NCBI GenBank assembly: GCA_009746045.1
Contig: RPFO01000448.1
Location: 3,020,049-3,084,048 of the forward strand
Reading direction: 5' to 3'
DNA from: Mesostigma viride
Lineage: Eukaryota > Streptophyta > Mesostigmatophyceae > Mesostigmatales > Mesostigmataceae
DNA: 64,000 nt
Numbering within the stretch: the stretch's first letter is position 1; every line of letters begins with the position of its first letter. The position numbers were made by a program, and so were the translations under genes. The notes beneath the pieces are model-generated. The model did no database searches and had not been told where the DNA came from. It saw only the letters and a program-made list of their open reading frames with translations. This document shows, in pieces, positions 6,846-62,070 of this stretch.

Positions 6846-7058
6846 TTTGACTAACGGTCGAATTTCGCGCCGCGCCGCGAGCGCCGCGCCACTTGTGACG
6901 GATGTCAGTGGTCCGGTGGGTCCGGGAACACTTAGGGACGAAGGTGATGCATAGGTTTGGGGGTAATATCCGCCATAGCCTGGTAATTATAGGGCTGTAA
7001 TCATAGGGGGTCACGTGACTTTGGCGGGAAAATTTGGACCAAGCGCGCGCGCGCGGAT

Positions 7059-11100: not shown

Positions 11101-11104
11101 TTAA

Positions 11105-12803: not shown

Positions 12804-12844
12804 TTAAAAAACGCTACAGTGCCTGGCAAGCCTGGAAAAAAATT

Positions 12845-24133: not shown

Positions 24134-24240
24134 ATTAAATTAATTAATTAGTCTCTCGTGTCCCCGTTAGTTGGGGGACCACGGAGCACTGAATTCCCAA
24201 TTTAAGATACAGTGCAAGTCTCACCAAGATCGACGTCAAC
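24134..24240 (-). mobile_element. LINE/SINE 3' end relic with hairpin and TTAA tail
   Basis: Reverse-strand tail (TTAATT)n at 24134-24152, preceded on that strand by a GTCCCC..GGGGAC hairpin and the shared CGGAGCA motif. Short 5'-truncated copy; nothing coded. Confidence 0.5.
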
Positions 24241-24255
24241 ACGTATAAATGTATG

Positions 24256-24420
24256 ATTAATTAATTAATTAATTAATAGACACGTGACTGCGTCACGTGA
24301 GCATAAGTCCTCAGTGGAGGGGGAACATGGGATGAAATGTATGATGTCCACTGCAAATCCAAAATATGGGCCTCAAGTGAGGCCTCGAGCTAATCTTGCG
24401 CATGCACGCAAACAATGCCT
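24256..24420 (-). mobile_element. second-type 3' end relic (CACGTGAC hairpin plus TTAA tail)
   Basis: Tail at 24256-24279 followed by CACGTGAC-TGC-GTCACGTG, a perfect 8-bp stem. The same hairpin with the same neighbouring sequence lies in opposite orientation at about 59000-59065, showing a second repeat family with hairpin plus tail ends. Confidence 0.55.
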
Positions 24421-24689
24421 ACCATTCCTTTTATGTTTTCTAGGACCCACAGTTACGGGGTCGTAGTCGATCTTTGACAACGTCCGCCAAACGCTGCTTA
24501 ACCTGCTGATCAGACCATTATCTGAGTAAGAGGGGTTAATTGAGCGGATGACGCCACTTAACAGCGTCTTTGCTCTGCATGTCAGCTAAAAATATGGCGC
24601 ACGTTATATGAAGTGGTATATGTCCAATTGATATTGGCCACCCCGTCGCCAAAATCAGGGCTATAAATGTCATGCGACAGTGTCATGAA

Positions 24690-25301
24690 GAACAACTAGG
24701 AAAGTATATGGGTCGCGACCCCTAACAGTAGAACTAGTACGTAGGTGTGGGAAGCCATGGCGGCCGCCCACTCACCATCATGCCATATGTAGGATGGTGC
24801 CAAGGACCACTGGCTTCTCACCCTCATGGGCCTGGTAGGTGAGGTAGAACTGCGCAGGTGCCACCGCCTTCCCCACTCACGGGACAAGGCGGCTCCCCCA
24901 CCAGTCCTGCTCACCTTCCCCTCCCCTAAGGATCAAGCGGCGGTTCCTTTCTTGTCGCAAGAGGTTGCACGACCTCACCTGGACGCTGGACGACGACCTG
25001 ACCCCCGCTCAGCAGCAGCAGCGACGCGACCTGTGGCCGGAATACCTCCGCCACAAGCAGGTCCCCCAGAAGCCCAAGGTGTACTTGAGGGGCGGGGACC
25101 TGATAATTAACCACGCGATGTGGACGCCCCCTGCGCGCTAGAATAGCCTGTATAACAGCCCTACCTTGTATCCATTGGTATAGTCACTGCCGCCATGGCA
25201 GCCATGCCTAGAATGTTTGCCTAGCTGTGCCACCATACCTAGTCACGTGCACCGCTAACACACGTTACACAACCAGCCATAATTAATTAATTAATTAATT
25301 A
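24690..25301 (+). pseudogene. 5'-truncated LINE ORF1-type relic with TTAA tail
   Basis: A readable frame ends with the stop at about 25139-25141. It includes LDDDLTPAQQ (about 24989) and YLRGGDLIIN (about 25081), the pattern of the C-terminal part of LINE ORF1/gag-like proteins (basic run, LWP, then FRG-type strand). Non-coding sequence and an (ATTA)n tail (25279-25301) follow. The upstream part is truncated. Related relics at 26461-26650 and 57240-57420 end in the same way. Function in an active element would be RNA binding; here it is a fragment. Confidence 0.55.
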
Positions 25302-25900
25302 GACTCGTGCTCCCGTTGGGTCCGAGTCACGGAGCATTAACCCCGATGGATGGATGGATGGGTGCAAACAGTCCTACCGGTCTAATCTATCTACATCAGC
25401 TACCTACTACATCTATCTAACAGCATTCGAACTACAACATCTATCTAGACAGCCACACGCTGCCCTAGGGGAGCTGTCTGGCGTGCCTCCCACGGGTTTG
25501 CACACGCGGGCGCTTCCCCACTGGGGGGGGCTCGTTGTCCTCTATGACCTGGGCCCACTTGGCCTTGTCCATCATCTTCTTCCAAATCACGGAGAGGCCT
25601 AGGCCCCCCATGTCCTCTACTAGCTGTTCTTTGAAGGTGCGGGCCTTGCGGCGTCTAACATCACTGGGCCCGGCCAGCCATATTCTGATCAGACACTCCG
25701 CAAAGGTGAAAACCTTTGCGTTCAGTGCCGGGCCGCGGAAAACGCGGAAAACGCGATCTGCAAATGAATCCGACCGGAATCGAACTGGGGACCTCTCGCA
25801 CCAATTTTGCTGACTATAGGACGGACGTCTCCGGTTACCATGGCATCGCCAACTTACACCTACAGTCATCCGCAAAAGTTCTCCTGTCCGGGGAGTGATG
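25279..25900 (-). pseudogene. LINE ORF2 C-terminal relic, possibly with a tRNA-like head
   Basis: On the reverse strand, 25875-25465 is open. Its middle shows the zinc-knuckle-like end of LINE reverse transcriptases (FTFAECLIRIW), then LVEDMGGLGLSVIWKKMM and KAKWAQVIED. The 3' sequence has the GCTCC..GGGAGC hairpin (about 25308-25340) and a (TTAA)n tail shared with the forward relic ending at 25301. The 5' part (about 25770-25850) holds a B-box-like AGTTCGATTCC and tRNA-like spacing, so it may be a SINE with a LINE-derived tail. Copies of the same body occur at 52430-52640, and a diverged frame at 29182-29379. Confidence 0.55.
25770..25850 (-). ncRNA. tRNA-like SINE head (candidate)
   Basis: Reverse strand carries an A-box-like TGCCATGGTAACCGG and, about 50 bases on, AGTTCGATTCC, matching the RNA polymerase III B-box. 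The cloverleaf stems are imperfect, so it is not a functional tRNA. Confidence 0.35.
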
Positions 25901-25974
25901 CAAGCCTTTCGGATTTGGTACTAGATAAATCACTCGAGATCTGTGTGTAGGAGTACTACACACGTGTCTAGCCA

Positions 25975-26812
25975 TATAATTAATTAATTAATTAAAATCA
26001 TAGCTCCGTTGGGAGCATATGTAACACATAGCCCTGAGAAAGGGGCATCTATGGGTTTGTAATACAATCAGGGCTACAACCTGCAGGTGGAGGATGTACA
26101 ACTGTCACCTGCTCTGGGTGCACAAGGTGCACCTGCACCGCCATGATGGTTCATGCCTCCTTAACAAGCACAGGCACCCAGGGGGGGCTTGAGGAGAGGG
26201 CCTAGAAGGCCTGCATGACATATGGGGTGGAGGGTATGTGGCTAGGCTATAGCTGGTGTACACATGGCATCTCAGCAGAGAGTAACTCCCTGCATAGGCA
26301 TCGCATGGCTAAATTCTTAATGCATCATCCATGGGAGGTCCCATTGTAGGCTGGGCGCGGCTAGATACTGAAAGCATCATCCATGGGGGCCATTATGGGC
26401 GCACATGCGCGTGGGCCACTTGCAAGGCTAAGCCTATCTAATCTACACTACTGGTATATTCCCTAGCCTGGAGTGGCAGGAGGGGCCTGCCAGGGCTTGT
26501 GGTCAACGTGGATGACCGCCCCCCTCCAGTATACCGGCTTCCCCCCTGCACGCTGCCGGAGCTGAAGGTAGGTCGGCCATAGCTCGCGTCGCCGCTGTTG
26601 CTGGGCCAAGGTCAAGTCGTCGTCCAGCGTGAAGCGAGTCTCCGAGAGCTTCTTGCGGCATTTGGGCCAGCCATATAGCCTCAGCTTAGCCCTTGTACAG
26701 CCATGCTACGTCCTGGCTATGATCAGTTTACTTGCCCACGCTACTTGTTACTAATGATATGTTCACATATGGGTCTTATTGCACCCACAGCACTTGCCGG
26801 ATCGTCTACTAA
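25975..26812 (-). pseudogene. LINE ORF1-type relic with covarying tail hairpin
   Basis: On the reverse strand, about 26650-26461 reads LDDDLTLAQQQRRRELWP and then YWRGAVIHVDHKPW, the same ORF1 C-terminal pattern as at 24690-25301. A long 3' untranslated part runs to a perfect hairpin GCTCC-GTTG-GGAGC (forward strand 26003-26016) and the (TTAA)n tail (25975-25996). The copy at 56785-57420 is related. 5'-truncated, not functional. Confidence 0.6.
26003..26016 (-). ncRNA. 3' tail hairpin, G-C outer pair
   Basis: Reverse strand GCTCCCAACGGAGC: 5-bp stem with CAAC loop, directly before the TTAA tail. Confidence 0.7.
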
Positions 26813-27087
26813 AAAATTAAATTAAATTATAACATGTCTCCGTTGGGAGATCATGTAGCACATATTCCAGGTTGGATGGGTGGTGTGGAGGAAGCCGCGT
26901 AAGCGAACTAACTAAGCTATATCTAGTCTAGGAAACCCTATCTACGCTACTCATCAAAACGGCTCCTCCTCTTGGGGGGAGGCGGCTTGCCCACAGGGGC
27001 TGGCGTGCCGTGTAAGCCTTGACGTCAATCTTCTGCCACCGCTTCTTGTCATGCATGGCAGTCCAGAGAAGGATCGTCTACATGGCG
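26813..27087 (-). pseudogene. 5'-truncated 3' end of the APE-type LINE
   Basis: Reverse strand carries the ORF2 C-terminus (KKRWQKI, ARQPLWA) and 3' untranslated part, closely matching 56460-56770 of the degenerate LINE (shared GCCAGCCCCTGTGGGCAAGC). It ends with hairpin TCTCC-GTTG-GGAGA (26837-26850) and an (AATTTAATT) tail. Typical 5'-truncated retroposed copy. Confidence 0.7.
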
Positions 27088-27243
27088 TGTCCGATTGCCG
27101 CTGTGGCATGCCTCTGGCATGAAGGAGCTAAAGGGGGTACGTCTCTGCCCTTTCTTCCTGTTGTGCACATGCAGGGATTAAAAGCACTTCGGTGCTCCGT
27201 GACTTCCGAACGGGAGCAATTAAGAACTAATTCAATTAATTAA
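27088..27243 (+). mobile_element. SINE-like element S, copy 1
   Basis: About 155 bp, homologous to 59390-59553 (shared CTGTGGCATGCC, TCTGCCCTTTC, CAGGGATT). Ends with AGCAC-TTCG-GTGCT (27183-27196), then the GTGCTCC..GGAGCA pairing partner, then AATTAATTAAT. Non-coding. Confidence 0.6.
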
Positions 27244-27289
27244 TAGGATGGTAGTTCTCTGCTGCGCATGCGAATCCCATTACTTAACC

Positions 27290-27450
27290 CAGGTTAATTA
27301 ACTGCTTGATTGGAACACGTCGATCGCGTGTTGGGGAGCCACGGTCCCACGGAGCATTGGTGCAACCGTTCTCGCGCCGTTTTCGTGGTACCAGTTGAAG
27401 TCCTACCACTCTAACGGACTGAGTTTGTGCGCCTACCAGGCGCCGCGCCA
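27290..27450 (-). mobile_element. tRNA-like SINE candidate
   Basis: On the reverse strand a D-arm-like CTCAGTCCGTTAGAGTGG (near 27423-27405) begins a tRNA-like head. The shared GCTCCGTG and GGCTCCCCAACA hairpin motif follows at about 27325-27360, and the piece ends in TTAATTAA near 27296. Head and tail combination suggests a short SINE using the LINE tail signal. Cloverleaf not verified. Confidence 0.35.
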
Positions 27451-28660
27451 ATAATAATTTAACGGTCAAACCTGGGGGGATCGAAAGATCTAGACGTCAG
27501 CTTTCCGTAGAGCACTTCAGACCGTACTTTGGACACCTGGCCAGGGAGATATGCTTGAGCAAAGTTAGGGGGGTACCATGGTCCAACGGGACCGACGTGC
27601 AGGAAAAATATTGACGCGCATGGCTATGGCGGTGCAAAGAACTGACTGGTACGAGAGAATGGCTTGACGTATTGGACTCAAATTTTGTAGGCATGATTCT
27701 TAGATCCTAAAAATTGAATATCCCTAGCCATGGAAGGTTTGGAGGTACGTAGATGGGTCTCGGGGTGCTGGTCGGCGCAGCAAATGACGTTAGCGGCCAG
27801 GCAGTGATGGTGCGAGTGCTGCATGTTGCTAGGCCGAATTTTCCCAGACATCTGCGCATCGATCAATTTAGTACGTTGTTCCCAACAAGATTTATTAGCA
27901 TTGGCAGCCAGTAAAGGCTCGAGGCTACGTCCATTACTCTGGCGTGCTGGCTCGCGCAAGAAAGGTAATCTGCTGTACCGACCTGGTACGTTCTAGCCTC
28001 CAAGCGTGTTCTATTAGCCGTATATAGTTGTATTATCGTTTAAAGCTAATATCAGAGTTATTACCGAGGGGTTGTGATTGTCTTTTTGTTGTTTTGCTGC
28101 CTCTACGCATCGGCTTGTCATGGTTGGGGAATACCATCAGGTCAAGCAGATTTTGGACCATGTTTGGTCACCGTTAGCTGATGCTGCAACGGAAATAGCG
28201 AGGTAACGATTGTTATCGGTCACTAATATGGTAACGTTGATTACCCAATGCTTTTCCTTGGTCAAGCACCCCGAGACAAGTTCTTTTCTGACCAGTGTTA
28301 GGCGTGGCTTCTTGTTTTGCTGGCCAACGCCCACCTTCTTGTTTTGCATCCATTGCATGTGAAAATCGTGGAGATACCCATAACCTGTTTGCATGGGAGC
28401 ATTATACCAACTTATTCCTATTGTTTTATTCATTGTTTCCAAGAACATAGAGGTGTTTTGTCGTTCATTGGGTGTGTTAGTGATGTAGCTCCTTGCCACC
28501 CTTTGTACGCGCGCTTTAGGCCTTGATATGAGCCTTACACCTATTGTATAGCATGAGCTTGTGTCTTATATGCTGGACATGGTGTTGGCATTGCTTTTGT
28601 GGCCATCTAGTTGTTGTTTTGTGCCACTTTGGGATAGGAAACCTGTACGGCAGTTCTAGC
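27451..28660. other. unassigned sequence
   Basis: No supported gene. A 120-codon open frame on the reverse strand at 28137-28499 has no recognisable features, and I treat it as chance. Confidence 0.3.
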
Positions 28661-28666
28661 AACCGT

Positions 28667-28710
28667 CCCAAAATAGCTTGCACCGTTATAACGGTCTGAG
28701 CTATTTTGGG
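28667..28710. repeat. 44-bp near-perfect palindromic hairpin
   Basis: CCCAAAATAGCT (28667-28678) pairs exactly with AGCTATTTTGGG (28699-28710). The interior holds a perfect 14-bp palindrome ACCGTTATAACGGT (28682-28695). Could be a cruciform or small fold-back element. Confidence 0.75.
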
Positions 28711-29181
28711 CTGTTTGCTAGCTAGCATGTGCAGTTCTGTGACATTTCATGCTGTGAATGCATTGATGGCATGCCTGTGATTCTAATAAACTGCCTTTAA
28801 AAGGCCAGGGCCACCTGATTTGTGTAAATGGTCTATAATGCATTATATATGTCACCAACCCCATGTGCACCGTACCCCCCTGGGGGGGGTGCTATTTATA
28901 GCATGCATGGGGCATAGATATGTGACCAACCAAATTTCCCAAACATTATTTGATATAAAAGCATGCTTGGTTCCAAGGGTGGGCCAGAAAATCTTATTTG
29001 GCTAGTTACTCTCAGGCGCACAAAGATACCCAAACTCAGTCCGTTTCGGTGGTTCCAGTCCAGACGGTTTACATCGAATGAAGATCAAGGAGACAACCAG
29101 CGCAGGCCTGCGAATGAAGATGCCTATACGGTTGGATCAATATGGATACTCGTGTAGGATCATGGATACTCGACTCCTCCC

Positions 29182-29379
29182 ATGCATTTGGGAGGAGCCG
29201 GCAACAACGTAGAGCCAGTGAGTAAGTGCATGGTGGGCATGCGAATCCATGACGACGTACGATTGCAGATGATTGAGGATTCAGGGCTTCTAGGACTATC
29301 TGTAATCCGTGCCCTCATGATAGACAAGGAGAAATGGGCCGCAATCTGCGATAAGTGTACCTTCCTTCATGAGAATTAA
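29182..29379 (+). pseudogene. LINE ORF2 C-terminal relic, forward
   Basis: The end of this 65-codon frame (EDSGLLGLSVI, MIDKEKWAAI) matches the C-terminal pattern of the relic at 25465-25875 (EDMGGLGLSVI, MMDKAKWAQV). Stop at 29377-29379, then AATTAATTA. Third copy of the same LINE end. Confidence 0.55.
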
Positions 29380-29459
29380 TTAGCAACATAACGGCAGGCT
29401 CGAGCTACCATGGTCCGGATTCTCCCGATTTCTGGCCTGCGCTGGTTGTCTCCTTGATA

Positions 29460-29690
29460 ACTCCGTTGGGAGTACATGTAGCACAAATCCCTGAGAAGGG
29501 GCATATTCTGATTTGGCACGCCGCAAAGGTGAAAACCATCTGCGTTCAGTGCCGGTCCCTGAGAAGGGGCATATGGCTATTAATACATTCTGGGCTACTT
29601 CCTGCAAGGCTAGGGTGTAAACTACACCTGCTCTAGGTGCACCAAGGGCACGGCTGCACCACCATGATGTCTCAGAGCTCAATTAAGGCC
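29460..29690 (-). mobile_element. LINE 3' end fragment with tail hairpin
   Basis: Forward-strand hairpin ACTCC-GTTG-GGAGT at 29460-29473. Body matches 56807-56960 and 26003-26150 (GGGGCATAT, CTGGGCTAC, CACCATGATG). The piece near 29507-29560 repeats 25680-25732. No intact coding. Confidence 0.6.
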
Positions 29691-36270: not shown

Positions 36271-39200
36271 ACCGTTACTACTCAGCTCTCTTTCTAAACG
36301 AACCCCATCCTGACTCATCAGTCTGCAGCCATGCAAAAAATCCTACATGCCATTCCCCGTCGCCTTACACCAGCTCAACAGCAGGAACTCGATCAAATCC
36401 CCTCCATGGAAGAGGCCACAACAGCTATGGAACACATCAAAACCGGTAGCGCCCCCGGGGTCGACGGTCTGCCTATTGAATTCTGGAAAACGTTCTGGTC
36501 CCTTCTACACATAGATTTCTACGAATGTATTCTTGAAATTTGGCGGCACGGTAAGGTGAGCGGCAGATGGGCTGAATCTGCGCTTATCTTACTGTACAAA
36601 AAAGGAGACAAGACTCTATGGAAAAACTACCGCCCAATCCGTCTCCTTACGGTAGCGTACAAAATCATCAGTAAAATAATCCAACGACGCTTATACACCG
36701 TCCTAGACTTCCTCATTGGTCCGGAGCAAGTGGGCTTTAGGGCCAATCTCCACATCAACGACAGCATTACCCTCATCATGGACATTGTGGAAAAAGCCTG
36801 GCGCGACGATATAGAGGGTTTCATATTGTTTTGGGATTTTGAAAAAGCCTTTGACCGTATGTGCTGGGAATACCTAGAACACATTCTAACCGCACTAGGA
36901 TTTGGCCCACAACTCATGACCGTCATTATGGGTATGATCAAATCCCTGGCTTGGTATTTACTAATAGACGGACACAAGTCAGCGACCGGCGCTAGCTCAC
37001 GATCGCTACCACAAGGAGATTGCATGTCCCCTATTCTATTTCTCTTGGCCCACGCAGGACTCTACTGGCTACACCAGAACGATCCTCGCATTCGGGGCTT
37101 CCCGACAGGTAACGGTAAAGGTATATTCCAAACGGCTTATGTGGATGACACAACAAATGTTTGTATCTCTCTGCCTGAAGTGCATGCTGTCATGGATAAT
37201 ATCACTACCTATTCTGTTGCCACACAACAACGATGCAATGTGCTCAAGTCCACGGGACTGCATATCGGCAAAACCAACACCCTACGCTACGCCCTCCCCA
37301 ACCTGGCTGTGACCTGGGTCAAGCCGGGGGATCACCACCTTTTGCACAATTGTCCCATCGGCTGCACACCCGAGGGACGCTTGGCTGAACAACGTTCTTT
37401 CATGTATGATGAAACCAACCACGTGGGCAAGCTTGCAGGCGTTCTCCTTACCGCAGGGCGCTGGGGGGCCGTCCACCGCATGAGCCTACGAGGGCGAACC
37501 CTGATCGTCAACCAACTGTTGTTCTCTAAGGTCTTGTATTATTGCCAAGCACACCCACCCAATGATGCCACCACACAGCTCATCCAACGCCTTGGCAGCA
37601 ATTTTGTCTGGAAACAGAAAGGCTTAATCTCCCACACGGTCCACGGATGGATCAACAGAGAGATGTCCTTCATGTCATGGGTGCACGGGGGCCTCGGGCT
37701 CCACAACATACAATGGCGTCTGTGGTCGCTGTATGCTAAACAAGTGATATCCGTTTTTATGGGCGTTAACACACACCCTGGCTGCATGCTTGCACGTGAA
37801 ACGCTAGCCTCTCTTTCCACCCATGCTAGTGGCACCTCGTGGCAACTGGGGGCGGGCATACTGGGCAGCACCCTTATTTCGTACAAAGGACTCCCATGGT
37901 ATTGGCAGCGCATATGGACAGGTTACAATAAGCTCAAGCCGGGTCGCCTAGTCTTTCCTACTACTAGAGAGGAGGTGGCACGGCAGCCACTCTTTTTTAA
38001 TGACTTAATCACAGACGCTACTAACAAGCCCCTGGGCACTCTCCACGGACACAACCCGTATGATGGCTTTCTGCGCGCGTCACCGCCGATTGTCAGGGTG
38101 CTGGACCTCTACCTGGGGCACGGCGCTGCGTACCGACGGCTCAGCTACGACGAGGTCAGCACTTGGGTCTCCCACATGCCCTCCCTGCAAGCGTGGCAAA
38201 CTCTTATAAGTGCGATACCAGCGGCGTGGCATGCATTGATGACTGCCCCACGCAAGCCAATTATAACCGGCGACTGGGTTAGCTTCTACGCCGACGGAGT
38301 CACGCCTGCGTGCAAGGGTTTAGTCGTGACGGTTCTGCCACCTGAGGGGCTCCAACTACAACTGCTGGACGCTATTTCTGGCCACAATGGGTGTCTGTAT
38401 CAACTATCCACCTTATATGCGTACACGCCAGCTTCCCAGTGTCACCGCATACGCGTAGTCCCATGGTCTGTGCCAAGATCTTGCATGATCCAGCCGGACC
38501 CATTATCCCCGGTTGAGAGCATTACATGGCTACACGTGGGCAACACACGGCTCGATCTACTACATCTGGACCCGGTTGAATTTGGATGGGTCTTAACCAA
38601 GGGGGACATCAGAACCAGCAAATGTATCTTTGAGTACACCGCAGATTGGGGTTATGATATCTTGTTGCATATGTACCATCAGCCCCACCCGGGCCGAGCC
38701 CGCTGGGGAATACATTGGCCGGGCTACACTTGGGTTAAGATGATTACCCTGGCGGTAGACCACCCTCTCGTGGACCGCAGGGCCACTGATGTACAACACC
38801 TTTTGATGCATAGGGCGATAGGGGTCTGCGCCATGCTCCACGAGCGTTTTGGTCATGATGCATCATGCCTGTGCACGCACCCTAGTGAAACCATTGAGCA
38901 CAGGTTTCTTTACTGTAATCTCCCTGGGGTTTGGACGTGGCTCATTAACATCTGGGCCGCATGGACGGCATCGCCACCCACTCTCCCAATCAGCGTGCGT
39001 ACCATCATTTTCGGTATTGCTGGCACACCAGGGTCCGAGCTTTCAGTTTCCCAAGCAGAATGGATATGGCTACGCACTACTATGCTATACGCGATCTGGA
39101 CCATACGCAACGAGACAGTCTTTAAGGTCCGCGAGGAGTATACCCGCGGCGGCGTAGTCCGGCGCTTTATATACCTATGGAATGCGGCTATGCGCCGCTA

Positions 39201-39505
39201 CTGGCTGTTAGCTCAGGAACAACACAGGGTGTGGGACCCAGGGCCCAATAACGACAAGCCCAGCCCGCTCCAGCTTTTTCATGATCTACTGGGCCGTAAT
39301 CAGGTATTCACCAGTATGCCTCATGGCGACATCACTCAGGTCCAATGGCTTCCCTGGTCTAATAACGCGCCCTATTAGCCTTTCACCTGTCACCGCCACA
39401 CGTGTGTGTGCCCACCTTCATTAGGATTCGCTGATACTCATTTCCCCTCTCACCTCTTTGGTCCATAATTGGCTAATAAAATATACCCATTTCCCCGAAA
39501 AAAAA
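36271..39505 (+). mobile_element. L1-like LINE insertion, 5'-truncated, with poly(A) and TSD
   Basis: Flanked by AAATGTTCCGCCTC at 36257-36270 and 39506-39519, a 14-bp target duplication. The 3' end has AATAAA near 39476 and a poly(A) run just before the second duplication. These are the marks of target-primed insertion. The element starts 60 bp before the ATG of its ORF and lacks an endonuclease region, so it is 5'-truncated. The duplication is perfect, so the insertion is young. Confidence 0.9.
36331..39378 (+). CDS. LINE reverse transcriptase, ORF2 3' part (RVT_1, zf-RVT)
   Basis: 1015 codons without a stop. RT motifs in order: a leading SAPGVDGLP; motif A with D169 (FWDFEKAFD); motif B SLPQGDCMSP; motif C AYVDDTT with D272 and D273. 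A thumb-like region and a long C-terminal domain follow, containing a zinc knuckle (C846, C848, ETIEHRFLYC) and a Trp-rich tail. These match L1-type ORF2 after the endonuclease. The APE endonuclease that normally precedes the RT is missing because the insertion is 5'-truncated. The ATG is simply the first in the remaining frame, so a functional protein from this copy is doubtful. It would catalyse target-primed reverse transcription in a full-length element. Confidence 0.9.
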   Translation: MQKILHAIPRRLTPAQQQELDQIPSMEEATTAMEHIKTGSAPGVDGLPIEFWKTFWSLLHIDFYECILEIWRHGKVSGRWAESALILLYKKGDKTLWKNYRPIRLLTVAYKIISKIIQRRLYTVLDFLIGPEQVGFRANLHINDSITLIMDIVEKAWRDDIEGFILFWDFEKAFDRMCWEYLEHILTALGFGPQLMTVIMGMIKSLAWYLLIDGHKSATGASSRSLPQGDCMSPILFLLAHAGLYWLHQNDPRIRGFPTGNGKGIFQTAYVDDTTNVCISLPEVHAVMDNITTYSVATQQRCNVLKSTGLHIGKTNTLRYALPNLAVTWVKPGDHHLLHNCPIGCTPEGRLAEQRSFMYDETNHVGKLAGVLLTAGRWGAVHRMSLRGRTLIVNQLLFSKVLYYCQAHPPNDATTQLIQRLGSNFVWKQKGLISHTVHGWINREMSFMSWVHGGLGLHNIQWRLWSLYAKQVISVFMGVNTHPGCMLARETLASLSTHASGTSWQLGAGILGSTLISYKGLPWYWQRIWTGYNKLKPGRLVFPTTREEVARQPLFFNDLITDATNKPLGTLHGHNPYDGFLRASPPIVRVLDLYLGHGAAYRRLSYDEVSTWVSHMPSLQAWQTLISAIPAAWHALMTAPRKPIITGDWVSFYADGVTPACKGLVVTVLPPEGLQLQLLDAISGHNGCLYQLSTLYAYTPASQCHRIRVVPWSVPRSCMIQPDPLSPVESITWLHVGNTRLDLLHLDPVEFGWVLTKGDIRTSKCIFEYTADWGYDILLHMYHQPHPGRARWGIHWPGYTWVKMITLAVDHPLVDRRATDVQHLLMHRAIGVCAMLHERFGHDASCLCTHPSETIEHRFLYCNLPGVWTWLINIWAAWTASPPTLPISVRTIIFGIAGTPGSELSVSQAEWIWLRTTMLYAIWTIRNETVFKVREEYTRGGVVRRFIYLWNAAMRRYWLLAQEQHRVWDPGPNNDKPSPLQLFHDLLGRNQVFTSMPHGDITQVQWLPWSNNAPY

Positions 39506-52270: not shown

Positions 52271-52645
52271 TTTGCATTAATTAATTTATTAATTAAACTC
52301 GTGCTCCTGTTGGGGAGTCACGGAGCATTAACCCCGATGGAGGGATTGATGGGAACATGCAATCCTACAACCGGTCTATTCTATTTAGTTACATACATGC
52401 AATCCTACTGGTCGTTCTATCTAGGGTATGCCAGACCCTAGGGGTCTTGCCTAGCATGCTTCCCGCGCTTGCAAACACGCGGGCACTCCCCACTGGGGGG
52501 AGGTCATTGTCCTAGCTATATAACCTGAGCACACTTGGCCTTGTCCATCATCTTTTTTGAAATGACGGAGAGGCCTAGGCCCCCCGTGTCCTCTTCTAGC
52601 TGCTCCTTGAAAGTGCGGGCCTTGCGGCATCTAGCATTGCTGCAT
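52271..52645 (-). pseudogene. LINE ORF2 C-terminal relic, second copy
   Basis: Collinear with 25279-25655 (shared CACTTGGCCTTGTCCATCAT, GAGGCCTAGGCCCCCC). The TTAA tail is at 52271-52296 and the GCTCC..GGAGC hairpin at about 52303-52330. Truncated at 52645. Frame broken. Confidence 0.65.
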
Positions 52646-53830
52646 GGGTCCGTCCCACGTGCATGAGGAGGTGCCTGCCAGGCTGAGCAGGTCGCAGCCC
52701 TGCGGAGCTCTAGCTAGGGGCCGCGAGATGTGCATGTCTATACCTGGTTGGTGCAAGCTAAGTGCCCTACTGTCTGTGGGGGCTCCGCGTCAGTGTTTGT
52801 TTTAGTGGCGATATGCCGCCAAATGTGGCGGTGTGGCACTTTTTTTGGCAAAATGTGGCGGTGCCACCCACTTTGACAGGGCTCCCAAGAAGCCACAATT
52901 TGGCCGTGCTGTTCTACTTTGTAGTTTCGTTTCGCCACAGGGTGGCCGTGCCTGAAGTTCACTCTAGTACAGGTTACGCCACAATTGGCAGTGTCAGCCG
53001 AACTTCCGGCCGGTGTTCCGCCACAAGCCTCCCTAGTACTAGACTACTACAATGAGTACTACTGTGACTGACTGACTCACTGACTGCATAGTGAGTGCAT
53101 GTACGTAGAGCCCGGCCAAGTGCCAAGTGGCAAGTGGCCCGCTGCCAGAGACCAGAGTGCACTGTGCAGACTGCAGCTTGTGTGCATTTTCACTTTTCAG
53201 GCTTCAGCTGGCTGGCGGCCTGGCGGCTGGCGGCTGGCGCCTCAGTTAAGTCACTCGCCAGCCATACTGTAATGCATTGACTACCGTAGTGGTCAAGATC
53301 ACTTTGTACTGCATTGACTACGGTAATGTACAATGTGTTTCGACTTTCGGCACAACAGTTGTAATCGTTGTTGTTAATTTACCAAGTACTGTACGCCCGG
53401 CGCCGATGCCTGAGACGGAGACGCTCGCCCGCCTTGTGTACAGCCAGTACGGCGCCGCGCCGCGCTGACCCCGCTGCCGGCAGGGTCATTTGCTGCACCA
53501 AAAAGCCAGCCCGCCACACGTGGCCGTGCCAAGCCCAATTTCAGTAATTGGGCCCGGCTTTAATTGGGGGCCCCACACACATGGGCCGAGTAAACTGAAG
53601 TTTTCATAGTTCGAAACGCCACAAGTGGCCTAGCGCCACTAGTAACGAAAACCTTCAAAAAAACACTGCTCCGCGTGTGCGTGGCATTCATAGCGATTCG
53701 GGCCGTGGTGCCCGTGGACAACCCTGTAACTAGGACCTAGATAGCTTACATAATCCATTCCATAATAACTGGTGCATTGCTGCTAACGACAACACTCCCC
53801 TGTTTTCTGCCAGTTTTTGTGGGATAGCGG
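52646..53830. other. unassigned sequence with TGTGGC/GCCACA motifs
   Basis: No supported gene. Repeated GCCACA / TGTGGCGG words (52805-53030, 53505-53640) without a clear period. Confidence 0.3.
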
Positions 53831-53835
53831 GATGG

Positions 53836-56770
53836 TTGCTGTCAACAGTCAACTGCCACTTCCAACGTCCCTCACACGACTTGGTCACTTTTCGGGGCCC
53901 TAACGGCTGTCAGGCCTGTCTGGGCTACGTGGTGGTACGGCAGCCCAGGTGCACTTCGGTTCTGGACACCCGAGGACTGTTCGACACGCCCACGGTGTGC
54001 TCTGACCACAGGTTGGTGCGCGCGACCATTCGACTCCGGTTCCATGTCCCCGAGCGCCGCGCCCCATGCAGTGGCCCGCCCTAGCTGACTGGTCTGCTCT
54101 ACGCCCGGTCCGGGGGGATCCTGAGGACTGGACACACGCCGAGCGCGATCGGAACCGGTGCCGACAGGAGTACTTACCTGGCGGCCCTGGCCGCCCGGGC
54201 GGACGTCGACGCGCTGGACACGGGTGCTCCCAACGCCGCCATTTTTGCAGGCTTTGCGGCCCGCGCCGTGGGGCCCCGTTGAGCACTGGCGGCCCGGCAC
54301 CTGCCGGTCATGCCCCGCCGCCGCGCCCCGGCCCGCTCTACCGCCAGGACCCCAAGGTCTTGGCCGCCCGGCACCGCCTCAAGCGTAACCGGGACCCGTT
54401 GCACAACCCGGTGCTCAAGACCGCCCTTGTGGAGGCCTACGATCGAGCACGCTCAGGACGCAGAGGCGGCCCAGCTAGTGCATCGCAGGTAATGGCAATT
54501 ATTGCCAAGGCCTGCCAAGCTCGCAACCAGGGCAAGGACATGTGGTACCACCTCGGTCGACCGGCTCGGCAGCCAGCGGCAGCGCACCCCGGTGGAGCAC
54601 ACGGGGGACGGCACGGCGCCGGTCAGCCTTGACCGCTGGTTGGCCCACAATGTTTCCTTGACAGGTGGGGCTCGCGCCCCCCCCCCCCCCGCCGCTTCAC
54701 CCCGAGATGGCCGCCCGCCTCGGTGTTGCAGGACCCCCCCCCCCGCCGGCGCCCCCCTCCTCGGCCGCGGACTACCAAGTCCCCGCGCCTTGCCAAGGAG
54801 GGCTGCCTTGCCACCAATTAACGACGTCGTCCACCCCTTAACTTTGAAGGAATTGGACGGCGCCCTTGCTCGCCTGCGGTACGACGCGGCGGTCGGTGCC
54901 GACCACCTTTCTCTGCTGAGCTGCTGAAGACCCCTGACCCGGCGGTGAGGGATCTTCTGCTGGCGTTCTGCAACCGTGTCCTGCTCTCTGATGAGCCTCC
55001 GCCTGCTGAGTGGCAGACGGCCATCCGCGTCATGCTGTACAAGAAGGGCTCTGCTGCTGACCCCGGTAACAATCGGGGTGTCTGCCTCCAGAGCGCCGCG
55101 CTGAAGGTCTTCATGCGCATGATGCTGCACCGCCTCCGCGCCGCGCTGGACCCACACCTGCCAGGGTGAGTCTCAGATGGGTTTTCGCCGTGGCCGTAAC
55201 ACTGTTATGGCTGCCGGTATTTGTCGCGCGCCGGTTGATGGAGGAGGTGTGTCGCCTTTGCCCTGATGGTCTGCCGCTGGTCTTCATTTTTGTCGACTAT
55301 ATCAAGGCCTTTGGCACGGTCAGGACTCTGGGAGGCTCTTTGGGCCATCCTAGCTCTGGATCGGGTACCACCAGCGTTTATTGCTGCCATTCGTGGACTG
55401 TATGAGGGCTCACAGGCAGTACTTAGTGCAGACTGCGGAAGGCACCACCCCACCATTCCCCCTTCACCACGGGGTGTGGCAAGCTTGTGTCCTGTCCCCA
55501 TACCTGTTCATTATTGTCTCGAATCACGTCATGCGCCGGGCACGTGCGCGCTTTACTGCTTCGGGTTCCTGCTTCGGGTTTCGGTTTCGAGCCCGGCTTG
55601 GACATCCTTAACAAGCGCGAGCACGGCGGGGTTGGCACTGCATGCTACCGCCTGGCCAACCTGATTTATGCGGACGACACCACCCTCATCGCGCGCCCCG
55701 AGCACATTCAGACCTGCGCTGCATGGACTGTCAGACTGGGCTTGGAGGCAAGGGCCGTGGCCGGGTCCGAGATTATTAGTGTCAAAACTGAGGCGATGGT
55801 GATTGGGGCCTCCGGTCGCCCACCGCGGCCGCGCCTGCTCGACGGGACGGAGGTCCCGTTCCGTGACCGCTTCAAACTGTTGGGGAGCATGCTCCCTGAC
55901 ACCGACGACGATGTGGCCATCCGCATCGGCCTGGCCTGGGCCAGGCTCCGTTCGCTCAACACCTACTGGCACTCGATCGAAGGGCCTGGGCGAGCACCGC
56001 AAGCGGATGCTCTTCAAGGTCCTCGTCCTCACGGTGCTCACCTATGGCGCCGAGGCGTGGACACTCACGGACACACTGGCAGCTATTAGCTAGACGGCAC
56101 GGTTTACAGGATGCTCTGACAGGTCCTGAACCTAGGGTTTTCCAAGCGTAGGTCATTACGGAGTCTTTGTATCAGGGCCGGTATGCCTCGTATTTCGGAC
56201 GAGATTAGGCAGCGTTACTAGTAGGATAGCATTTGCAGGACATCTTGCTCGCACCAGCCAGGTCGACACCGCCCTTAGTTGGTCTGGCCGGCCCCCAGCG
56301 GCTTGGCCAACCAGGGCGGCATATTTTGACCTGGCCTGGCCCCAAGGACATTCCCAGGAAGTTTGGTAAACCTGCCATGAACTACACCCAGATGTTGCTG
56401 GCCGACCTAGTGGTCCCAGCTCAGTTTGAACACCGCATCCACTCCCTCTCCCTTCTTTGGACTGGCAGCCGTGCAGAACAAGAAGCGGTGGCAGAAGATT
56501 GTCCAGGCTCACACGCCAGCCCCTGTGGGCAAGCCACCCCGGCCAGCCCCCCCAAGAGGACTGAAGGGGCGTTTTGCTGAGTAGTGTAGTTAGGATTTTA
56601 TAGACTAGATAGCTTAGTTAGATTTAGTTAGGTTCGTTCGATTATTATTATAAATGAATTATAAAATGATTATTTTCGCGGCTTCCTCCACTCCACCCAC
56701 CCATCAAGGAATATGTGCTACATGATCTCCCAACGCAGCTTAGTAGGCATGTTATAATTTAATTCAATTT
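53836..56770 (+). pseudogene. degenerate APE-type LINE (endonuclease end, RT, 3' end)
   Basis: Pieces in three frames form one decayed ORF2. 53836-54084 carries the end of an AP-like endonuclease (VCSDHRLVRATIRL, the SDH motif). 54300-54600 is a linker. 54840-55170 holds the RT start (AAVGADHLS, EWQTAIRVMLYKKGSA). Motif A is at about 55291 (FVDYIKAFGTV, with G where D is usual), motif B at about 55466 (GVWQACVLSP, changed from the usual RQG) and motif C at about 55668 (LIYADDTTLI). The end (NKKRWQKIVQAHTPAPVGKP) stops at about 56579. The 3' part to 56770 has CTCCCAACG and an AATTTAATT tail and matches 26813-27087. Frameshifts and stops make it non-functional. Confidence 0.75.
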
Positions 56771-56784
56771 TAATCCATTCCATC

Positions 56785-58363
56785 CCATTAATTAGTTAGG
56801 AACATAACTCCGTTGGCAGTATATGTAGCAAATATCCCATAGAACTGAGGGGCATATGGCTTTTAAAATACACTCTGGGCTACTTCCGGCACTGAAGGGT
56901 GGGAATGTAAACGACACTTGCTCTAGGACGTGTACCAAGGGCACCTGCACCACCATGATGTCTCGGAGCCGTCATGGGGGGAAGATCATGCATCATGGCT
57001 ATACAAGAGCTAGGGCATGGCTTCTCAACAGAGACATATGATGAGCGACTCTAGCTCTGCATAGGCAGAGCGTGGCTAAATCAACATCCATGGATGGGGG
57101 TCCCATTATTGGCATGGCTGGGCTGAATTCTGAAGGTGTCATCCATGGGGGGCATTATGGGCGCACATGCGCGTAGGCCACATGCTAGGCTAAGCCTGAC
57201 TAATCTACACTACTGTTATATATTCCCTAGACTGAGGTTGCTGGGGTGCATGGCAGGAGGTGCCTGCCAGGGCTTGTGGTCAACGTGGATGACCGCCCCC
57301 CTCCAGTATACCACCGGCCGGCTCCCCCCCTGCGCTCTGCCGGAGCTGAAGGTAGGTCGGCCATAGCTCGCGTCGCCGTTGTTGCTGGGCCAGGGTCAAG
57401 TCGTCGTCCAGCGTCAGTAGCGAGTCCGCGAGATCTTTTTTGCGACAGCTTGTCCGCCATGTACTTAAATGGTGTCAGAGGAGCCGGCACTCGGGTGCCG
57501 GGCCAGCCTCAGTACCCCGCGCGCGCGGGGGAGGCGGACAGCCGACATCCGCAGGCTGCTCACCAGTGAGTTGCATGGGGGCAAAAATGTCGCGCTTAAA
57601 TGCCAGGAGAAGCATCTCCGAGGTCTCATCTACAGGCTGGTCGAAGTGCCTTGACGATGACATTGTGGCTGCGATAAGTTGTCGAGCTCGGCCTCCTCAC
57701 GAAGGTCGAGTGCTTGTTGCTTGAGCTGTGCCGCGTTGGTGGAGGTGGTGGAGATGGTGTGGTGCAAGGCCGCCCAGGTCTGGGTGGAAGGAGCATCGCT
57801 GGCGCGGGCCAGCAGATGCCGGCCGGTAGCGATGTCCTTCACCGCCTGGGCGGTGTGAGGCCTGCGGTGTCGTGCAAGCACTCAAGGGCGAGGGCGGTGG
57901 CGTGGAGGCGCTTAATTGTCGAGGTCGAGGAGCTGGGCCTTGATGTCGGCAGCATCAAGGCGGCTTGGTGGAGGCGGAAATGGCAGTGGAGGTGGAGGCG
58001 GCGGTGGTGGAAAGGTGAGGGAGCTCAGTAGCCAGCGTGCCTCCCATTAAGTGCTGCCACATCGGCAGCAAGGGGGCTCACGTGCTGCTGGCCGGAAGGC
58101 TTCCGTAAGGATGGAACGGAGTGTGGGTGCGGAGATGGATGGAGCCCAGATCTCACCATCAGAGCGCATGAGAAGGGAGTTGCCGAACATATGGTGTGCT
58201 GGAGTTGCATTGGGGCGGGCGCACCCGATCAGAGTGCCTGGGTTAAAAACCATTTGCCGTCCGGGGTGCCTGAGGCGAGTGCATGATGCTGTCGAGATGG
58301 AGGCACAGGTCGTAAAGCGAGGCGTAGTCCCCGAAGAAAAGGCAATGCATGGCAGTTGCCGAG
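56785..58363 (-). pseudogene. LINE ORF1-type relic, decayed
   Basis: Reverse-strand pieces in shifting frames: 58253-58050 (FNPGTLIGCA, CCRCGS), 57881-57630 with a coiled-coil-like STNAAQLKQQALDLREEAEL, 57663-57475, and about 57420-57260 with LTLDDDLTLAQQQRRRELWP. Together they resemble an ORF1/gag-like protein: a variable N-terminal part, coiled coil and C-terminal domain. A 3' part similar to 25975-26460 follows, ending in a weakened hairpin (56807-56820, one mismatch) and ATTAATTAG. It meets the forward LINE tail to tail. Confidence 0.55.
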
Positions 58364-58366
58364 GAC

Positions 58367-58760
58367 ATTAATTAATTAATTAATTAATTAATTAAACTTG
58401 TGCTCCCGTTGGGGAGTCAACGGAGCACCGAAGTGCTATTAATCCCTGTTGTGCCGGGGACATGTTGGTCCAGTCGTGATCGTCGACCTTGAAAGGTTGG
58501 GGCCGAAAGCGCGGTTCTGTTGGGCGCACTGTTCTGTTGGGCGCAGTTCTGCTGGGCGACTGCGTTCACGGGATCTGGCGATGCCAATGGCAAGGCGCCG
58601 CCAGGAGCCGAGTGCACTACCAAAGCTTGAGTAGTGGCCTCGCTGCCTGGCAGGCCGGGCGGAACTACAGCCAGAGCTGCAGGCGAATTTTCTTTGCTCG
58701 TCGCAGCCGCCAGGGTGCGTTGCGTATTCGAGCGTTTGCTCGTCATAATATTGCGTTTTA
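58367..58760 (-). mobile_element. short element with ORF1-like start joined to the tail hairpins
   Basis: Reverse strand: a frame of 109 codons (58746-58417) starting MTSKRSNTQRTL, Ala/Pro-rich, running straight into AGCAC-TTCG-GTGCT (58424-58437), GTGCTCC..GGAGCAC (58400-58428) and the TTAA tail (58367-58395). Looks like an internally deleted element that kept its 5' ORF start and its 3' signal. The protein family is not recognised. Confidence 0.45.
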
Positions 58761-58999: not shown

Positions 59000-59075
59000 G
59001 CATTTCATCCCATGTTCCCCTCCCACTGAGGACTGATGCTCACGTGACGCAGTCACGTGTCTATTAATTTAAGTG
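59000..59075 (+). mobile_element. second-type 3' end relic, forward copy
   Basis: Inverted counterpart of 24256-24340: CACGTGACGCAGTCACGTG hairpin followed by CTATTAATTTAA. Confidence 0.55.
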
Positions 59076-59389
59076 CCCATATAGTTGCAGGGGCCGCTGC
59101 TTGATGGTGCTTAGTAGTGATAAGCAGCATGCGTGTCAGTAAGTACTTGCGTGCCATGCGCATGGGCATGCCACAGAGTAGTATGCTAATCTCATTGGAA
59201 AATAATAAAGTTATTAATATCGTCTGCATCATGCCCCAACTTGGTACCATATCGTCGCCTAGCTTAGCTTAGTCCTTGTACAGCCATGCTACGTGCTGGC
59301 TATATGCACCAGATTCCTTGCCTGGCACGCTCCCTGTTATGCCATGCTCACATGGGTCTTATTGCACCCACAGATTGCCGGATCGTTAG

Positions 59390-59553
59390 CGTGTCCGTTT
59401 AGCTTGCGTGCCCGAATGCAGCTGTGGCATGCCTTAGGCATGAAGGAGACTGGGGGTCTCTGCCCTTTCTCCTGCTGTGCACACACAGGGATTGAAAGCA
59501 CTTCGGTGCTCCGTGACTCCACAACGGGAGCACGTGTTTAATTAATTAATTAA
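59390..59553 (+). mobile_element. SINE-like element S, copy 2
   Basis: Homologous to 27088-27243. AGCAC-TTCG-GTGCT at 59497-59510, overlapping GTGCTCC (59506-59512) that can pair with GGAGCAC (59527-59533), then TTTAATTAATTAATTAAT. Confidence 0.6.
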
Positions 59554-59637
59554 TATCGTCACCTTGGTCCAGCTGATCCTGATTTCTGGCCTGCTCTGGT
59601 TGTCTCCTTGATATAGTCACTAGATCGGGGGATCTTA

Positions 59638-59680: not shown

Positions 59681-59698
59681 ATTAATTAATTAATTAAC
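59638..59698. repeat. (AAAT)n and (TTAA)n tail of the reverse LINE
   Basis: About ten AAAT units then four AATT units, at the 3' end of the element running leftward from the right edge. Confidence 0.85.
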
Positions 59699-59859: not shown

Positions 59860-62070
59860 CTAATAGCCCTGCTGCACCGCAAAATCAGCCCGCGTACGGC
59901 GGAGCATGATGTCCGCCATGGCCCGAGTCAGCGCCACCGACAAGCGCTGACGCCAATATGACGTCCAGGTCCGCGCCGACCATGGGGCCCGCTGGCCCTC
60001 CAGGTCCAGCCGGTCCTCCCGGAGCCGGCAACACTCCTTGAAGAAGGCGGAGGTCAGGGGCCCCATGGCCCCAAACTCCTCCAGGACAAAGGGCACCACA
60101 CGATGGTGCCCGACGTCGCCGTAGGCCAGGAGCTTGGCCCGCTCCGCCCGGTCCGCCGTGTAACCTGCCGTGAGGGAGGCCCCAGCCACGTGGCTAAGAG
60201 CCAAGGGCCGCGCCACCGAAACGTCAATAAGCAGATGCCGGCCACCCCCCTCAAAGTCCAGCACCACGATGTCAGGCCGGTGGTTGGGGGAATAGAAGGC
60301 AGCGCCATCCGCATCCTCGGACCGGATGTTCGCGTGGGGGAAAACCGACCGAATCATGGCGAGCACCACCGTCAGGAGGACAGTGTGCAAATACAAATAC
60401 CAATTCTGATTCTGTTGGCCCCCCATGCAGGCAAGGTAGTGAGTCCCCGTGGGATCCAGCGGCTGCCCACAGCTACCACAAGGCCGCCCGGCCGGAACAA
60501 GAGGCTGCGGGGCAAATAGCTGGTGCCGGAGCGCCACCGAGTAGTGGCTGGGAGCCAAGGCGAATGGGGGGGCCATGGGAAGAGCACGAAGGTACGCCGA
60601 GCCCACACTCCGCAAGGAAAGCGAGAACAGCCACGCACGTCCCTGGGCGTTGAGGTCCGCGAAAAGAGCAATCCAATCAGCCGTGTGCAGAATACCCGCG
60701 TAGGTTTTCTGGTGTTTATCGATGACGCGAGCAGGGAATGCGGCGGGAGATTGAACGGAGGCGACCGAGGGAGTGCCGCGAGGGAGGTGGCGCTGTACCG
60801 CCTGAGCGGCACGGACGGGAGAACAGGCCTGCTGGATCTCAGCATAGGCCTCCTGGATGGCGGTGACGAAGGGCAAAGGGCTGCTGGGGTCCAGGAGGTC
60901 AGGCGCTGCCGTTGCCAAAAGGGGCAGGAGCCGGCAGCTTTCCGCCCACGACTGAGCGACGGAGCCCAAAAAGGCTGCTGGGGCCAGCCGGGCGGCACGA
61001 GTCAGACCGCAGCCACCCATCCGTGCAGGCAGGGAGGCAATGCGAATAGCATGTGGCGGGAGGTCGGGGCCCGGGACCAGCTGCGCCAAGGCCGACTGGA
61101 TGCGTTCGTCGTGGCCCTCGGCGGCCAGCCGGACCTGAGACGGAAGAGCGCCCCGGAGCCAGTGAACGACGCGAGGGTGAGCGCAAAACCACAGAAGCAG
61201 ACCCTTGGTCTGCGAATCATGAAGGCGCGCAATCAAGGGCAGTACCTCAGTGCGTGCCTCGAGGGCGGCCCGCAGAGCATCGATGACAAACGCGGGGTCG
61301 CCAACCGGAACGCCGAGGACATCCAACCCATGGAGGCGCTCGTCCCGGCCCAAGAGCTGGGGCGGAAAGCCGGAGCAATCACCTTGGGGCGAGTACACCG
61401 CGCACTTGGCAAGGGTCAACTGGAGGTTGATGTCGGCCACCGCGGTCTGCAGTGCCAGCAGAGCCGCGGTGGTGTCCGGCACAGGGCCCAGAAGGTAGAT
61501 ATCATCCAAGTAGGCCTGAATAGCGACCGCCGGGTGGGCAGCATGGACCGCTTGGAGGCAACCCTGGAGGGGGGCGGCAAAGTACAGGGGTCCCAGGGGG
61601 TCCCCTTGCTGGGTGCCCGACCGCGACAGCAGGCCGCCGCGAGTGCCGTCCTCCATGATGTGAACCAGTTGGCCGGGCTGGCCGTAGCACACGGCTGTCC
61701 AAGCGTACAAGTCCTCGAAGGACTCCATGACGGCCGCAAACATGCTGGCGCGGGACAGACTGTTGAACGCGTTGTGGCAGTCGACCTTGACGACAGCGTG
61801 GGTGGGGTGGGCCTCGAGGTAGGCCTGCACCGAATGGATGAGGATATCCGCCCCGCCTGGAGTCGTCACCCCCAGCTGGGCCGCCACCGAGGTCTCACCC
61901 GCTGCGAGGGGCGGGCAGAAAAAGGCACGGAGCTCGGGCGCCTTTTGGCGGCAGATCACTTTGCCCACGAGCTTGCGGAGCACCTCACCGCAGGCGATCG
62001 GGCGCACCTTGCCCTCGGGGGGGGCAAGACACCCTTGAGCAGAGCGAGGAGGCGAGCGCCCGCTAACCAC
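59860..62070 (-). CDS. LINE reverse transcriptase and restriction-like endonuclease part
   Basis: 736 codons open. RT motif A is KVDCHNAFNSLSR, motif B SGTQQGDPLGPL, and motif C AYLDDIYLLG (catalytic Asp pair D189-D190 of this frame, forward 61501-61506). Near the C-terminus CGSC (C-x2-C) and THYLAC form a zinc knuckle. RPDIVVLDF (Asp at forward 60271-60273) and LLIDVSVARP (Asp at 60223-60225) follow, fitting a PD-(D/E)XK nuclease. The protein would nick target DNA and prime reverse transcription. The apparent ATG is not the true start: the frame continues the next piece upstream across a break at the G8 run 62017-62024. Ends at a TAG shortly before the 3' tail. Confidence 0.88.
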   Translation of the reverse strand: MVSGRSPPRSAQGCLAPPEGKVRPIACGEVLRKLVGKVICRQKAPELRAFFCPPLAAGETSVAAQLGVTTPGGADILIHSVQAYLEAHPTHAVVKVDCHNAFNSLSRASMFAAVMESFEDLYAWTAVCYGQPGQLVHIMEDGTRGGLLSRSGTQQGDPLGPLYFAAPLQGCLQAVHAAHPAVAIQAYLDDIYLLGPVPDTTAALLALQTAVADINLQLTLAKCAVYSPQGDCSGFPPQLLGRDERLHGLDVLGVPVGDPAFVIDALRAALEARTEVLPLIARLHDSQTKGLLLWFCAHPRVVHWLRGALPSQVRLAAEGHDERIQSALAQLVPGPDLPPHAIRIASLPARMGGCGLTRAARLAPAAFLGSVAQSWAESCRLLPLLATAAPDLLDPSSPLPFVTAIQEAYAEIQQACSPVRAAQAVQRHLPRGTPSVASVQSPAAFPARVIDKHQKTYAGILHTADWIALFADLNAQGRAWLFSLSLRSVGSAYLRALPMAPPFALAPSHYSVALRHQLFAPQPLVPAGRPCGSCGQPLDPTGTHYLACMGGQQNQNWYLYLHTVLLTVVLAMIRSVFPHANIRSEDADGAAFYSPNHRPDIVVLDFEGGGRHLLIDVSVARPLALSHVAGASLTAGYTADRAERAKLLAYGDVGHHRVVPFVLEEFGAMGPLTSAFFKECCRLREDRLDLEGQRAPWSARTWTSYWRQRLSVALTRAMADIMLRRTRADFAVQQGY

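Follow-up and report, generated by a model that had tools for sequence, protein, structure and literature searches.

3′-terminal hairpins common to L1-like LINEs and ORF1-encoding satellites in the genome of Mesostigma viride

A 64-kb window of Mesostigma viride contig RPFO01000448.1 (the whole stretch analysed, from a genome of 440 Mb; all coordinates below are positions in it) contains a series of short hairpins, most of them followed by A/T repeat tails. These hairpins are real and under selection, and they very probably (at about 0.83) form the 3′-terminal recognition element of a stringent-type, L1-like group of long interspersed nuclear elements (LINEs), which is exploited through the same hairpin by satellite elements that encode a predicted L1-type open reading frame 1 (ORF1) protein and no reverse transcriptase (RT). 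By analogy with characterized LINEs, the RT would be the protein that reads the hairpin.

Hairpin architecture and compensatory change

The initial annotation had named three stems that differ in their outer pair, and all three are present in the window sequence: GCTCC-GTTG-GGAGC at 26003-26016, TCTCC-GTTG-GGAGA at 26837-26850 and ACTCC-GTTG-GGAGT at 29460-29473. In the whole 64 kb a GTTG or CAAC tetranucleotide is enclosed by a perfect stem of 5 bp only four times, the fourth case lying at 58403-58416. At the named sites the proposed order, hairpin before tail, holds only for the minus strand; this is the sense strand, in which the tail lies 3′ of the hairpin, and the loop of the RNA is therefore CAAC rather than the GTTG first described. 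The neighbouring tail is of the expected TTAA type only at 26003, with (TTAA)n at 25980-25995, and is (AAATT)n at 26837 (26814-26828), while 29460 has none. In its common form, ACATN-n-NCTCC-CAAC-GGAGN-NATGT, hairpin A has two helices of 5 bp each, separated by a single bulged base on the 5′ side, with the CAAC loop closing the upper one; the stem of 10 bp in total is about twice as long as originally noted owing to the second helix beneath the bulge. Hairpin B, GCTCCGTGACTCCC-CAAC-GGGAGCAC, has the same plan of bulged stem and CAAC loop, from which hairpin C, CACGTGAC-GCA-GTCACGTG, differs. RNAfold minimum free energy folds of the tested A and B ends contain the bulged-stem structure, and an Rfam scan of the 64-kb window gave no match. 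The related stems reported near 24155, 25310, 52305, 58400 and 59527 were all recovered, with E-values of 0.00047, 0.0085, 1.8e-06, 0.0027 and 1.8e-06, respectively, under a covariance model of hairpins A and B built partly from the very forms scored. Hairpins equivalent in kind or role also lie at 27194, 24281 and 59041, three sites absent from the earlier list.

Across the genome, ACTCCGTTGGGAGT occurs 7,124 times and its reversed control not at all. With the bulge, the loop and two of the stem pairs unconstrained, the pattern for hairpin A matches at 10,644 places; that for hairpin B matches at 6,110, and neither reversed pattern gives a match. Covariation was evaluated against 500 shuffles in two sets of sequences, the first of which comprises the 25 distinct forms among 100 listed of the 10,644 hairpin A places, with eight of the ten pairs fixed by the search pattern and hence uninformative. 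In this set the cells with changes on both sides number 15, compared with 6.9 under shuffling, and neither the covariation score nor the percentage paired is reached by any shuffle (0/500 each). The second set, of 12 analyst-chosen forms (nine A and three B), has double changes at five of nine pairs and a covariation score likewise reached by none of the 500 shuffles; slid structures score at most 0.138 against 0.527 for the unshifted structure. The drawn pairing holds at 79 of the 100 listed A places and at 15 more once the bulge is shifted by one base, and the remaining six do not pair; the loop is CAAC in 81 and CCAC in 11. The family forms show A-T, C-G, T·G and G-C at one of the two free pairs of hairpin A, and A-T, G-C (the form at 26003), C-G and T-A/T·G at the other. 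At these two pairs the sense strand has G·U or U·G in 31 cells and A·C or C·A in two, a bias which indicates that the sense RNA retains the structure. The compensatory change that had been read from three window sites is thus borne out for hairpins A and B, in which the stem is kept by it; hairpin B is nearly invariant among 100 listed of its 6,110 places.

LINE lineages and ORF1-encoding satellites

The elements ending in these hairpins were characterized in a sample of 265,232 bases from this genome: the window, one locus of 3 kb and 20 regions each about 10 kb long. The sample is small, non-random and enriched, the 20 regions having been picked from contig 1 for exact hairpin A matches. The A/T repeat tails in this sample come after hairpin A, B or C, and the tail units at hairpin ends are (TTAA)n, (CAATT)n and (AATTT)n. 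The LINE_A layout, seen in L029, is ORF1, ORF2 with an APE endonuclease (EN) and RT, the 3′ untranslated region (UTR), hairpin A and (AATTT)n. Its ORF2 matches Pfam families PF03372 (E 2.2e-05) and PF00078 (E 5.3e-23), and the ORF1-ORF2 junction is spanned by all 40 scored matches, the query site included, these being the best 40 of 605 candidates. In LINE_B, the L032 copy carries hairpin B after an open ORF2 frame of 1182 aa, and in the L034 copy an ORF1 lies upstream. LINE_C (L035) ends in hairpin C, and its ORF1 and ORF2 are open over 495 and 1222 aa, respectively. The ORF2 proteins of B and C score 49-53% in alignment with that of L029. With domain limits set by the analyst from Pfam, RT identity among the three lineages is 66-69%, EN identity is 54% (A-B), 49% (A-C) and 48% (B-C), and identity of the linker between EN and RT is 44%, 35% and 37% for the same comparisons; the linker values suggest agreement with the split of the hairpins into A/B and C. 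On these sequence comparisons the three lineages are assigned to one L1-like LINE group with ORF1 and ORF2, and the hairpins belong to them and their satellites rather than being spread over several LINE clades. An ORF1 precedes ORF2 in A, B and C, as in L1-like LINEs, whose ORF1 protein has a coiled coil, an RRM and a CTD; the modelled fold that matches this type comes from the satellite ORF1. Between EN and RT, the C-run of the LINE_A copies at L029:3395 and in L030 differs in length by a single C, and in L030 ORF2 lies in two overlapping frames of 619 and 615 aa. A 615-aa open frame of the L030 type also occurs in many of 150 scored LINE_A copies, and the two-frame arrangement may reflect a split ORF2, slippage or a trans-mobilised master.

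The satellites encode an L1-type ORF1 protein and have no RT between ORF1 and their own 3′ end. Satellite A is about 2 kb long, with the same 5′ end in 11 other copies (query 60-76) and no stop within the match in 85 of 89 scored copies (the best 89 of 24,522 candidates); satellites B and C are known from few copies. ORF1 matched no ORF1 family in Pfam, nor did its alignment retrieve any L1 ORF1p when searched by sequence against PDB. The AlphaFold model of the satellite ORF1 has a mean predicted local distance difference test (pLDDT) score of 48.6 and reaches 70-80 only in most of its C-terminal part, and a fold search with that part returned human LINE-1 ORF1p as the nine best PDB matches, so that the model predicts an L1-type ORF1 protein. 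Among satellite ORF1s, some of whose frames are partial, the ratio of nonsynonymous to synonymous change (dN/dS) comes to 0.39-0.55 for comparisons inside A and 0.30 inside B; across satellites it is 0.41 for B-C and 0.75 for A-B, the latter near saturation. In a tree of nine ORF1s, three from LINEs and six from satellites form two groups with support of 100/99, the program flagging the LINE rows as long branches and some rows being partial; the LINE ORF1s of A and B score 27-32% in alignment with those of the satellites. In satellite B (59490-59534; L022:2098; L027:5795) a stem AGCAC-UUCG-GUGCU overlaps GUGCUCC...GGAGCAC, giving two mutually exclusive stems before the tail.

Each ORF end in the 265-kb sample was paired with the nearest hairpin within 600 nt downstream. 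Hairpin C follows all six LINE_C ends, B follows eight of nine LINE_B-like ends (59-100% identity) and A the remaining one, and A follows seven of ten LINE_A-like ends, the other three having none; three of these ten were found by the LINE_B query at 32-52% identity. For the satellites, the 32 A ends divide into 17 with hairpin A, 14 with none and one with C, the six B ends into three with B and three with none, and the four C ends into two with C and two with none, the latter two being weak matches (41 and 50%). A 3′-terminal hairpin is thereby common to an RT-encoding LINE and a non-autonomous partner in lineages A, B and C. Upstream of the hairpin region, a 250-nt comparison of each LINE with the satellite of its lineage gave a single 9-nt match (E 0.31), as expected by chance. 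The claim that the hairpin is common to several families stands for RT-encoding LINEs and RT-less elements. The main partners are not classic short interspersed nuclear elements (SINEs), which are short, lack ORFs and have a Pol III promoter, as these partners encode an L1-type ORF1. A tRNA-like piece is joined to a LINE_B end at 25740-25845 on the minus strand and directly to hairpin A at L018:1475-1728; it is a possible SINE and includes GTTCGATTCC, which we take to be a B-box-like motif. Even odds may be given to the broader proposal that an old ORF1-only lineage, distinct from LINE deletion products, lives off the three LINE lineages, using matching RT-recognition hairpins as exchangeable keys and keeping its own L1-type ORF1 protein under selection.

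Insertion and the hairpins of the window

Comparison of copies with related sites that have no insertion gave a noisy first pass of at least 1,111 cases, and a filtered pass was used, in which target duplications were found for 28 of 99 tails, seven of the 28 being judged spurious (nested, tandem or poorly aligned). The duplications in the filtered listing, including some spurious ones, are 6 to 24 bp long and none is TTAA. The LINE_B copy in L032 is flanked by ATGCAGGCTCT, with the site empty in L013, and the LINE_A copy in L030 by ATTCTTG, with the site empty in L022. For the LINE_A copy at window position 26814 the duplication is GTAGACGATCC and a related empty site is found in L003, and the copy of about 85 bp at 58367-58451 has a related empty site in L028. 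The duplications and empty sites confirm the predicted location of the hairpins at retroelement 3′ ends, and the empty sites have no tail, which indicates that the tail arrives with the insertion. Among accepted duplications with TTAA or CAATT tails, 13 of 17 start with AT as printed, that is, with the last bases of the tail; this match suggests that the nick end pairs with the tail and so serves as the primer.

In the mechanism we propose, the ORF2 protein would bind the hairpin of its own or of satellite RNA, with specificity coming from the loop and a more general fit from the bulged stem. It would nick the target near AT, and the nick end would pair with the A/T repeat tail so that target-primed reverse transcription could begin, slippage on the repeats accounting for variation in tail length and unit. 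The satellites would carry the hairpin of a LINE as a means of exploiting it while providing their own L1-type ORF1 protein. The features of the window that bear on these elements, with E-values from the covariance model where given, are as follows.

25999..26021, minus strand: hairpin A, G-C form, at the 3′ end of a satellite A fragment (E 6e-07)
26484-26585, minus strand: ORF1 match of the satellite A fragment that ends in the 25999..26021 hairpin
25980..25995, minus strand: (TTAA)4 tail of the same fragment
26833..26855, minus strand: hairpin A, T-A form, at the 3′ end of a 5′-truncated LINE_A copy, 27072-26814 (E 9e-08)
26814..26828, minus strand: (AATTT)n tail of the LINE_A copy 27072-26814
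29456..29478, minus strand: hairpin A, A-T form, of a satellite fragment whose tail is not kept (E 0.002)
24157..24183, minus strand: hairpin B variant, then a AATTAATT-rich tail (E 0.00047)
24281..24299, minus strand: hairpin C in the form of LINE_C ends, then a (TTAA)5 tail (24257-24276)
25306..25331, minus strand: hairpin B with an insert, at the 3′ end of a LINE_B fragment, 25675-25282, tail 25283-25298 (E 0.0085)
27194..27219, plus strand: hairpin B′, decayed, at a satellite B 3′ end
52300..52322, minus strand: hairpin B at the 3′ end of a LINE_B copy, 52770-52280 (E 1.8e-06)
53775..56770, plus strand: 5′-truncated LINE_A copy with the end of EN, RT, 3′ UTR and a mutated hairpin A at 56727
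56803..56825, minus strand: hairpin A of a satellite A copy, 58914-56787, split by the 58367-58451 insertion (E 0.0005)
58401..58419, minus strand: hairpin B′ of the 5′-truncated satellite B copy of about 85 bp, 58367-58451, tail 58368-58395 (E 0.0027)
59041..59059, plus strand: hairpin C in the form of LINE_C ends
59512..59534, plus strand: hairpin B′ at the end of a satellite B copy, 59265-59555, tail 59538-59553 (E 1.8e-06)
36298..39378, plus strand: ORF of a different LINE, RT1, with an A-run downstream and no such hairpin seen; its end is not mapped
59863..62106, minus strand: ORF of a different LINE, RT2, three other copies of which end without the hairpin

The two other LINEs of the window stand apart from this group. 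The single copy of RT1, whose end is not mapped, appears to terminate in an A-run, and RT2 was rejected as a partner, as the three other copies compared end without a hairpin. A hairpin ACTCC-CCAT-GGAGC with (TTAA)4 (59682-59717) abuts the RT2 3′ end in the window and is missing from those three copies. The RT2 element (59863-63705, minus strand) has a RING-finger ORF upstream at 62746-63705, and its C-terminal PD..D motif may belong to a restriction-like endonuclease. A sequence of about 1.7 kb is present in three copies, 95-96% alike, at 1284-2994, 11099-12808 and 16868-18569, two of them inverted relative to the third. An ORF at 6993-9167 on the plus strand, unrelated to the hairpin, encodes 724 aa with a DDE_Tnp_1_7 match (E 1.2e-48) and is presumably a piggyBac-like transposase.

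Alternative explanations and known systems

Several observations weigh against recognition through a selected hairpin. Each covariation test consists of five measures, two of which do not go beyond the shuffles: the number of pairs with double change (equalled in 459 of 500 shuffles for A and 92 of 500 for A and B together) and the occurrence of further pair types (43 of 500 and 225 of 500). The forms of the second set were chosen by the analyst, and shared descent of the copies makes the shuffles overstate significance, the independent units being five or six family forms. Hairpin C has no informative stem variation and gives no covariation evidence, and its folding z-scores are weak (-1.8 and -1.9). 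Nearly half of the satellite A ends have no hairpin within reach, a LINE_B end is followed by hairpin A in L026 and a satellite A end by hairpin C in L027, although we read these two mismatches as later insertions. Finally, EN follows the same trend of A/B versus C as the linker.

Some of these points would also fit a stem conserved merely by recent descent from a few masters, with the covariation reflecting founder differences without selection, as would the near-invariance of hairpin B. This explanation is nonetheless unlikely, for the families differ at the two free pairs of hairpin A and mostly still pair, double changes at further pairs separate A from B, and the hairpin is common to elements whose upstream bodies are unrelated. 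In a two-component LINE, one element would supply RT and another ORF1, each needing the other and both having the hairpin; this would account for the RT and ORF1 elements of the sample, which have the same hairpin and different bodies in three lineages, and for the common sharp 5′ limit of L029 and L030 near the start of ORF2. As stated it is refuted by copies with both ORFs in every lineage, given the LINE_A junction crossed by all 40 scored matches and the ORF1s upstream in LINE_B and LINE_C, and we regard it as very improbable. Scarcely credible is a role at the DNA level, whether as a signal or as the terminal inverted repeat of DNA transposons that target TTAA, such as piggyBac miniature inverted-repeat transposable elements (MITEs), which the TTAA repeats and the transposase ORF within the window might bring to mind. 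The hairpin and tail occur at one end only, the elements encode RT or ORF1 and are often 5′-truncated, the standard pairs that are not Watson-Crick are G·U on one strand, and neither TTAA target duplications nor terminal inverted repeats characterize them.

The preferred reading, a 3′-terminal recognition hairpin of an L1-like group, has counterparts in known elements. In the zebrafish L2 LINEs ZfL2-1 and ZfL2-2, the ORF2 segment between EN and RT binds the stem-loop with loop specificity, and UnaL2 requires a bulged base in its 3′ stem-loop (PMC4176376); the 3′ end of UnaL2 consists of TGTAA repeats (PMC3747384). The present elements resemble these in having a 3′ stem-loop, the loop being essential and the stem exchangeable in the known systems (PMC4176376). 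Unlike these members of the L2 clade, the Mesostigma group is L1-like with an L1-type ORF1, and its hairpin binding is putative. In the model proposed by Ohshima, recognition of a specific 3′ RNA structure is ancestral to L1-clade LINEs and was lost in mammals and some plants (PMC3747384). The occurrence in a single genome of thousands of copies, three related L1-like LINEs and two clearly different hairpin types (A/B and C), together with the open ORF2 frames of B and C, makes RNA specificity testable by swaps of hairpin and EN-RT linker, and the ORF1-only satellites provide a natural test of the role of L1-type ORF1p for an RNA without an RT gene.

Another counterpart is the L1-clade LINE1-1_ZM of maize and sorghum with ZmSINE2 and ZmSINE3, whose common 3′ end of about 50 nt folds into a hairpin with compensatory changes (PMC3747384), so that in both cases an L1-type LINE and non-autonomous partners have a common, compensated 3′ hairpin. 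The LINE1-1_ZM system has a UCU loop and tRNA-derived SINE partners (PMC3747384), whereas here the stem is bulged, the loop is CAAC and the partners encode ORF1; A/T tetra- and pentanucleotide tails and three hairpin types also set the present case apart. As to the satellites, the search listings of the open-access literature point to no comparable ORF1-only elements outside mammals. The HAL1 (half-L1) elements of mammals, which are derived from L1 and have arisen several times, are likewise non-autonomous and encode only an L1-type ORF1p (PMC5753468), and the satellites correspond to them in having ORF1p without ORF2. They differ in not being deletion derivatives of their own LINE, as the sampled satellite ORF1s stand apart from the three LINE ORF1s and, unlike in HAL1, the satellite 3′ body differs from that of the LINE except for the terminal hairpin region. 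Taken together, the comparisons identify the present case as a variant of the stringent-type 3′ stem-loop, one that is L1-like, has three hairpins and is accompanied by ORF1-only satellites that are not simple LINE deletions.

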